The position numbers and the translations under genes were made by a program. Source: Tamaricihabitans halophyticus (lineage in GTDB: Bacteria; Actinomycetota; Actinomycetes; Mycobacteriales; Pseudonocardiaceae). From it: a stretch of 64,000 nt of DNA. The first letter of the stretch is position 1. Each line of letters begins with the position of its first letter. The notes under the pieces were generated by a model. It had not been told where the DNA came from and made no database searches. It saw only the letters and a list, made by a program, of their open reading frames with translations. The DNA lies in assembly GCF_004340875.1 (NCBI RefSeq), contig NZ_SLXQ01000004.1, forward strand, positions 62,001 through 126,000, read 5' to 3'. Below are positions 25,162 to 26,557 of the stretch, piece by piece.

Positions 25162-25206
25162 CGTGACGCTGGCCACCCAGTGGGCACTGTCCGAATAGTG
25201 TCACCT

Positions 25207-25232: not shown

Positions 25233-25285
25233 GCTAACGGACGAATGGCTTGCCGTGGGGCAAATGCTCCCGCATACTCTCCCGC

Positions 25286-25357
25286 GAGGGGAGTACTTCG
25301 GACAGTGCCACTCCGGTCAATACGGACATCCCACGATGTCCTCGGAGCGCCGCCCTT
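25286..25357 (+). promoter_or_regulatory. yybP-ykoY-like manganese riboswitch aptamer upstream of terC
   Basis: GGGGAGTA at 25288-25295 matches the conserved first loop of the yybP-ykoY motif. CCGGTCAATACGG at 25113+200 equivalents, that is 25313-25325, resembles the second conserved loop, and CCCTT at 25353-25357 can close the basal stem with GAGGG at 25286-25290. An alternative hairpin pairs TACTCTCC (25275-25282) with the whole GGGGAGTA element. TerC/Alx genes are known targets of this Mn2+-sensing RNA. Recognised by eye; no covariance model was run. Confidence 0.55.
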
Positions 25358-25371
25358 AGTGGGTGAAGGAG

Positions 25372-25397
25372 ACCTCAAACGATTACCCGTTTGAGGT
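25372..25397 (+). promoter_or_regulatory. 10-bp hairpin hiding the terC ribosome-binding site
   Basis: ACCTCAAACG (25372-25381) pairs perfectly with CGTTTGAGGT (25388-25397) around a six-base loop. The 3' arm holds GAGG (25393-25396), seven bases before GTG 25404. No U-tract follows, so translational control is more likely than termination. It sits directly after the riboswitch-like aptamer. Confidence 0.7.
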
Positions 25398-25403
25398 GTG
25401 TCC

Positions 25404-26438
25404 GTGTCCAGTACCGCACAGCCGCTTGCCGCCGCCACCGAGCGGATCGGTGATCCGGCAATGTGGATTATCAGCATCGTCGTGCTACTCGCGTTGCTGA
25501 CCATCGACTTCATCGTCACCAGAAAGCCGCATACCGTGTCGATGCGGGAAGCGGTCGGCTGGTCAGTCTTCTACCTGGCCCTACCATTCGTGTTCGCCGC
25601 CTACCTGTGGGTCGACTACAGCGGCACGCAGGCACTGGAGTTCACCACCGGCTTCGTCGTGGAGAAGTCGCTGTCGGTGGACAACCTGTTCGTGTTCATG
25701 TTGCTGCTCGCGGCCTTCGCCGTCCCCGCGCAGCTACAGCAGCGAGTGCTGCTCTACGGAATCGTGGGCGCACTGGTACTGCGTGGCATCTTCATCGCGG
25801 CCGGCGCCGCCCTGCTCAGCGCGGGGACCTGGGCCTTCCTGGTGTTCGGGGCGATCCTGTTCATTACCGCGGTCAAGATCCTGCGCGACGCGCTGAAGGG
25901 TTCCGGATTCGAGACGGACGTGTCGCAAATGCGCTCGGTCCGGCTACTCCGCAGGTTCATGCCGGTGACCGACGACTACCGGGGCACCAAGATGAGCATC
26001 CGCGAAGGCGGACGGCGCGCATTGACCCCGCTCGCGGTCGTTGTCGTCGCGGTGTTCGCGACCGACGTCGTTTTCGCCGTCGACTCGGTTCCCGCCGTCT
26101 ACGGCATCACCGATGATCCGTACCTGGTCTTCACGACCAATGCCTTCGCGCTGCTTGGGCTGCGTGCGCTGTACTTCGTGCTGCATCGCGTACTCACCAA
26201 GCTCGCGCACCTCAACCACGGCCTCGCGATCATTCTCGCGTTCATCGGCATCAAGCTCGTCCTGCACTGGGCCCACGGCATCTGGCCCGCCATTCCGGAA
26301 GTACCAACCCCACTGTCCCTTGTGGTGATCGTGGTGGTGCTCGCGACGGTCACCATGACAAGTTTGCGCGCCAACCGGCGTGCGGAGGAAGCGAAAGAAA
26401 CGGAAGAAACAGAAGCAGAGGAACGCCAAACTAAGTAG
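25404..26438 (+). CDS. TerC/Alx-family membrane protein
   Basis: From GTG 25404 the protein is 344 residues; an in-frame GTG at 25398 is too close to the GAGG site. It has eight or nine membrane segments and the TerC core EFTTGFVVEKSLSVDNLFVF near residue 75. A second acidic membrane motif, FATDVVFAVDSVPAVYGI, follows near residue 215. The C-terminus ends in a highly charged glutamate-rich tail. Family members Alx and MntP-like TerC proteins export or handle manganese. The leader RNA supports a manganese-responsive role. Confidence 0.93.
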   Translation: MSSTAQPLAAATERIGDPAMWIISIVVLLALLTIDFIVTRKPHTVSMREAVGWSVFYLALPFVFAAYLWVDYSGTQALEFTTGFVVEKSLSVDNLFVFMLLLAAFAVPAQLQQRVLLYGIVGALVLRGIFIAAGAALLSAGTWAFLVFGAILFITAVKILRDALKGSGFETDVSQMRSVRLLRRFMPVTDDYRGTKMSIREGGRRALTPLAVVVVAVFATDVVFAVDSVPAVYGITDDPYLVFTTNAFALLGLRALYFVLHRVLTKLAHLNHGLAIILAFIGIKLVLHWAHGIWPAIPEVPTPLSLVVIVVVLATVTMTSLRANRRAEEAKETEETEAEERQTK

Positions 26439-26443
26439 AGCTC

Positions 26444-26557
26444 ATGGTTATCGACATCCTCATCGAAGCGGGTGTCCTGATCCTGGTGCTCACCGCCCTG
26501 GCCCTGACGTGTCTCGTGTTGGCCAATGCGAGGCCGCCGAGGGGACCAGGCCGCTGA
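26444..26557 (+). CDS. 37-residue single-span membrane miniprotein
   Basis: ATG 26444 starts six bases after the terC stop and runs to TGA 26555-26557. Residues 3-29 (IDILIEAGVLILVLTALALT onward) form one hydrophobic helix with an acidic start and a basic RPPRGPGR tail, so it should lie N-out/C-in. Codon third positions are G/C-rich like real genes here. No family was recognised. Its position suggests a small accessory to TerC. The ribosome site (GTAGAG) is weak. Confidence 0.5.
   Translation: MVIDILIEAGVLILVLTALALTCLVLANARPPRGPGR

Follow-up and report, generated by a model that had tools for sequence, protein, structure and literature searches.

The alx and mntP genes of E. coli are both responsive to Mn2+, and for mntP the reported logic is translational, with expression ON at high Mn2+ (PMC9603457). 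In the yybP-ykoY RNA of L. lactis, loop L3 reads UCA41AUUC and A41 is the Mn2+-sensing base (PMC6754395). We compared these systems with a leader in a 64-kb window from Tamaricihabitans halophyticus, the window being the whole stretch of DNA analysed; unless stated otherwise, coordinates refer to it and features lie on its plus strand. We consider it very probable that this leader is a compact alx-type Mn2+-sensing yybP-ykoY riboswitch at the 5' end of the terC mRNA, operating as a translational ON switch.

The reading frame 3' of the leader (terC/alx, 25404-26438, GTG start) encodes an Alx-type TerC, a metal-handling membrane protein, matching Pfam PF03741 (E 7.9e-47) and NCBIfam TIGR03718, R_switched_Alx (E 4.2e-106). 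A sequence-only reading had proposed a yybP-ykoY-like riboswitch and a hairpin over the ribosome site at this place, and what it stated of motifs, hairpin and GAGG was confirmed in the window: GGGGAGTA (25288-25295) and CCGGTCAATACGG (25313-25325) each occur once in the 64 kb when both strands are counted, TACTCTCC lies at 25275-25282, and ACCTCAAACG (25372-25381) and CGTTTGAGGT (25388-25397) form a perfect 10-bp stem. The 3' arm of this stem contains the Shine-Dalgarno motif GAGG (25393-25396), 7 nt 5' of the GTG at 25404 and at the same position as the GAGGAGG of homologs. The fold of the leader beats all 200 of 200 shuffles (z -3.2).

Conservation and architecture of the aptamer

Relatives of terC were taken from 100 Pseudonocardiaceae genomes, and 29 of the 30 loci inspected bear the same leader. 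A covariance model built from 28 leaders (R1) has a match before 78 of the 80 named relatives of terC, which fall in groups that we take to be Pseudonocardiaceae, Streptosporangiaceae, Micromonosporaceae, Jiangella, Microlunatus, Cellulomonas and Promicromonospora; across 314 kb it has no further match besides 11 divergent second copies (see below). This recurrence of one leader, together with covariation in each of its helices, lies far beyond chance. Common to the aligned leaders is the pattern GAGG-GGAGUA-CUUC ... CCGG-UCANNAC-GG ... GAAG-GAGA-CCUC.

In the window the aptamer domain spans 25286-25376 (R1 score 81.6 bits) and is predicted to form a three-way junction of P1, P3 and P4. The switch helix P1 pairs GAGG (25286-25289) with CCUC (25373-25376); a compensatory change from A-U to G-C is present in 3 of the 28 leaders, and double changes occur at 4 of 5 P1 pairs in a second alignment of 45 leaders, which was fitted to the structure. 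Between P1 and P1.2 (CUUC 25296-25299 with GAAG 25365-25368), both of which covary, sits the conserved loop L1 (GGGGAGUA), with GGAGUA at 25290-25295 opposite GAGA at 25369-25372 and invariant across the 28 leaders. The P3 arm (25311-25347) covaries in both alignments and comprises P3.1 (25311-25316/25342-25347), loop L3 (UCAAUAC, 25317-25323) and P3.2 (25324-25330/25335-25341); compared with its relatives, the window has some mismatches in the outer part of P3. The domain also contains the covarying P4 hairpin (25352-25364, pairing 25352-25355 with 25361-25364).

Support for this structure comes from two alignments that differ in how they were made. For the 28 leaders, whose alignment was not fitted to the structure, a hand-drawn model of P1, P1.2, P3 and P4 leaves 94.3% of cells paired, with double changes at 13 pairs, a result above both shuffled and slid controls. 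For the 45 leaders, drawn from several families, double changes occur at 27 of 31 pairs and in 257 cells versus 76 in shuffles, in an alignment that leans towards the structure because it was fitted to it; sliding the strands abolishes the signal. Five helices covary in both alignments. P2 is absent from the consensus of each, making the junction three-way rather than four-way. The four-way junction with P2, seen in the members with crystal structures, is not required for membership of the class, as alx is also matched without P2.

Class membership, distribution and ligand

A search with RF00080, the check that the sequence-only reading had suggested, found no match in the window or its leader (Rfam 15, cmscan at the gathering score and at E up to 10), yet the alx-type identification stands through our own models. 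The negative says little about the leader, and is not valid as a refutation, because the same model also misses the experimentally validated alx leader of E. coli K-12 (L183 677-799, nothing found with E as high as 1). It gives E. coli mntP 41.6 bits, short of the cut-off of 45, and exceeds that cut-off in 0 of 149 genomes. Its gathering score is a database threshold and not a biological defining feature, and the absence of a match is a weakness of the model.

Since a genome search with R1 alone underestimates the spread of the element (it missed L001), we built a second model, R2, from 45 actinobacterial leaders, with no Mn2+ riboswitch from outside Actinomycetota included. R2 nevertheless recognises E. 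coli alx with 57.3 bits (E 2.6e-15) and E. coli mntP with 23.9 bits (E 1.1e-4). From the other side, R1 puts the RF00080-like loci L001, L059 and L061 top, at the RF00080 positions, and matches the RF00080-like loci L057 and L060 weakly, again at the RF00080 positions. The links that R2 draws to alx and mntP, the covariation and the conservation of the leader together bear out the proposal of a yybP-ykoY riboswitch with a ribosome-site hairpin before terC. The lack of an RF00080 match might instead be read as the mark of some other conserved cis element, for instance a protein-binding leader; we rate this as highly improbable, given that RF00080 fails on alx as well, that R2 finds both alx and mntP, and that the L1 and L3 motifs and the gene contexts agree with an Mn2+ riboswitch. 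The element belongs to the known riboswitch class, in a branch undetected by the current Rfam model.

This branch is common in the genomes searched: R2 matches in 100 of 100 Pseudonocardiaceae genomes and in at least 92 of 396 sampled actinobacterial species, the latter figure being a lower bound under the strict filters applied. The T. halophyticus genome holds four copies in total, namely the terC copy of the window, one before a UPF0016 gene (L001, G000:C3:319619-319710), one before a second TerC gene (L179, G000:C19:75330-75430) and one on contig C20 (L178, G000:C20:4580-4706); none of the latter three comes up to the RF00080 cut-off. Mn2+ riboswitches are therefore widespread in Actinomycetota and almost none are visible to the present Rfam model, the same blind spot that keeps the validated alx switch of E. 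coli from view, and a better RF00080 model would correct many annotations.

The UPF0016 and TerC families are both tied to Mn2+, and copies placed before their genes favour an Mn2+ riboswitch. In other actinobacteria, copies of the element at L047 and L048 precede genes for P-type cation ATPases, which suggests a wider regulon; members of the class head genes of Mn2+ homeostasis (TerC/Alx, UPF0016/MneA, MntP and P-type ATPases), and the genes downstream of the copies described here, for TerC/Alx, UPF0016, another TerC and cation ATPases, fit that context.

The sequence of L3 bears most directly on the ligand. Its consensus is UCANNAC, and UCANN[A/C]C is found in 78 of 78 counted leaders; A25319 of the window is the counterpart of A41, the Mn2+-sensing base in L. 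lactis, and this A is invariant in the leaders. A variant ligand, considered because L3 seemed shorter than in the Rfam consensus, was dropped, as the L. lactis L3 is equally long. The same aptamer fold could still answer to a signal other than Mn2+ alone, whether Ca2+, another divalent ion, or Mn2+ in combination with alkaline pH. There are reports of this kind for alx of E. coli and mgtA of S. pneumoniae: alx is responsive to both alkaline pH and Mn2+ (PMC9603457), the three-way-junction yybP-ykoY RNA of mgtA is reported to bind Ca2+ and Mn2+ (PMC9495176), and the copies at L047 and L048 head cation ATPase genes. Against this, the adenosine that confers Mn2+ selectivity is invariant and L3 has the length of its L. 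lactis counterpart, and we regard such an alternative signal as unlikely, if deserving of some weight.

Transcript start, expression platform and switching

A sigma-70-type promoter is predicted immediately 5' of the aptamer, with a -35 box TTGCCG (25250-25255), a 17-nt spacer and a -10 box CATACT (25273-25278), together spanning 25250-25278. The predicted transcript start is G25286, with which P1 begins: the -10 box, with its -35 box, stands at the right distance from it, and such boxes are enriched in homologs. A -10-like hexamer, mostly GATACT, occurs 6-9 nt 5' of GAGG in 20 of 28 homologs, and 29 of 79 leaders carry NATA[CA]T at this distance, compared with 0.4% of shuffles. In the terC leader of C. 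glutamicum, RNA-seq places a transcription start site at the equivalent position (PMC3890552).

One further proposal was that TACTCTCC (25275-25282) acts upstream as an anti-aptamer by capturing GGGGAGTA. The two can pair at 8 of 8 positions, and the predicted fold contains this pairing when the transcript is begun further upstream. TACTCTCC, however, overlaps the -10 box, which ends seven bases before G25286, and should therefore be absent from the transcript; only 4 of 79 leaders show the full 8/8 pairing near that box, and the best pairing of GGGGAGTA with a stretch of 40 nt upstream does not surpass that of shuffles. The role was rejected, and we assign it a very small residual probability. 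The mutually exclusive fold that the sequence-only reading had attached to it does exist, by way of CCUC 25373-25376, which is common to P1 and the Shine-Dalgarno hairpin, and not by way of TACTCTCC.

A separate feature of the region is a perfect 13-bp complement between 25184-25196 and 25298-25310, which prevails when a longer piece of sequence is folded. Its first arm lies just 3' of the upstream gene and before the predicted start, and interference of the complement with the aptamer would be possible only in transcripts that read through.

The expression platform (25372-25397) is the 10-bp hairpin over the Shine-Dalgarno sequence. CCUC 25373-25376 either pairs with GAGG 25286-25289 to form P1 or begins the hairpin that hides GAGG 25393-25396, such that the 3' strand of P1 is common to aptamer and platform and the two helices exclude each other. 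CCUC can start a hairpin with at least 6 bp in 60 of the 79 leaders, a share that drops to 10.6% when the downstream sequence is shuffled; covariation within the Shine-Dalgarno hairpin is modest, at 3 double changes. Comparison thus shows three things to be conserved in actinobacterial terC leaders, the aptamer (P1 with L1, P3 with L3, and P4), the common CCUC strand and the Shine-Dalgarno hairpin, and it shows that the aptamer matches the one of E. coli alx.

An alternative to masking of the ribosome site would be attenuation of transcription, through Rho or pausing. Other yybP-ykoY members place the 3' strand of P1 in a terminator, and L057 and L060 end in a T-run. In the window no T-run follows the hairpin, and here as in clear homologs the 3' arm of the hairpin is the Shine-Dalgarno sequence itself, which leaves attenuation improbable and masking of the ribosome site as our preferred platform.

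The balance between the two states is strongly uneven in predicted folds. P1 is present in 55 of 79 leaders when the aptamer is folded alone and in 0 of 79 when the full leader is folded, and forcing P1 has a median cost of 10.2 kcal/mol over the 79 leaders; in the window the OFF hairpin is favoured over the P1 state by about 12-14 kcal/mol. As the hairpin state is so much more stable, the decision must be kinetic and taken during transcription, not at equilibrium. In the absence of Mn2+, CCUC would leave P1 and pair with the Shine-Dalgarno GAGG to give the OFF hairpin. Mn2+ would dock L1 against L3 in the nascent aptamer and hold P1, and if P1 were held long enough, GAGG would stay free, ribosomes could load and TerC would be made. 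The protein would then handle the excess Mn2+, by export or by metalation of secreted enzymes, both of which are functions of the TerC family. In this scheme we infer both Mn2+ as ligand and the ON direction of control. As a short bistable leader in which one CCUC strand is common to two helices, the element offers a convenient test case.

A membrane ORF beside terC, and comparison with known systems

Five nucleotides after terC lies an unannotated ORF of 37 aa (26444-26557) with one hydrophobic, likely transmembrane, stretch, MVIDILIEAGVLILVLTALALTCLVLANARPPRGPGR; it matches no Pfam or NCBIfam family. Relatives lie within a few bases of the terC stop, or overlap it, at most Pseudonocardiaceae loci and also in Jiangella and Microlunatus, and the small ORFs that follow terC share the pattern L..E/D....L..A..ITCAVL...RPPRGP. 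Their substitutions are ordered 3 > 1 > 2 by codon position, a bias that suggests coding without proving it. No such ORF was found 3' of terC at the Streptosporangiaceae loci. The second riboswitch copies mentioned above occur at 11 loci (L097, L092, L116, L138, L101, L095, L105, L118, L082, L108 and L109), at about 1100-1313 on the minus strand, divergent from the terC copy and ~100 nt from it, and at Streptosporangiaceae loci they mostly head a similar small membrane ORF (MSITVFLEILLGVLLV...). Homology between the terC-following and the divergent small ORFs would be one of pattern, not of score.

One tentative reading, to which we would give slightly less than an even chance, is that the riboswitch controls a two-gene unit of terC and a conserved single-pass membrane microprotein of ~37 aa, and that the microprotein is an Mn2+-induced partner of TerC, as the divergent Streptosporangiaceae gene has a riboswitch copy of its own. 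The linked microprotein is a candidate, open to experimental test, for a so far unrecognised component of manganese homeostasis.

The leader can be set beside several described members of the class. The yybP-ykoY element of S. pneumoniae resembles it in being described as a three-way junction, and differs in heading mgtA and in the Ca2+ binding reported there (PMC9495176). The L. lactis RNA, known from a crystal structure, has the same sensing adenosine (UCA41AUUC against UCAAUAC in the window), whereas its junction is four-way and its platform transcriptional (PMC6754395, PMC11087558). E. coli mntP has L1, the L3 core and P1/P4 in common with the window, and translational control is reported for it (PMC9603457); it is a distant match only, in which an additional segment (P2) separates L1 from P3 and L3 is longer than in the window (GUCAACAUAC). 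The leader of C. glutamicum cg2157 is likewise that of an actinobacterial terC with an Mn2+ riboswitch, and its transcript begins at the 5' strand of P1 (PMC3890552); it was found with an older Rfam model. Finally, E. coli alx (the PRE element) has a longer leader with an extended P4, in contrast to the short P4 and short platform, ending at the Shine-Dalgarno sequence, of the window, and it shares with the window an aptamer without P2, the GGGGAGUA L1, the seven-nucleotide UCANNAC pattern of L3 (UCAUUAC in alx) and an Alx-type TerC encoded downstream.
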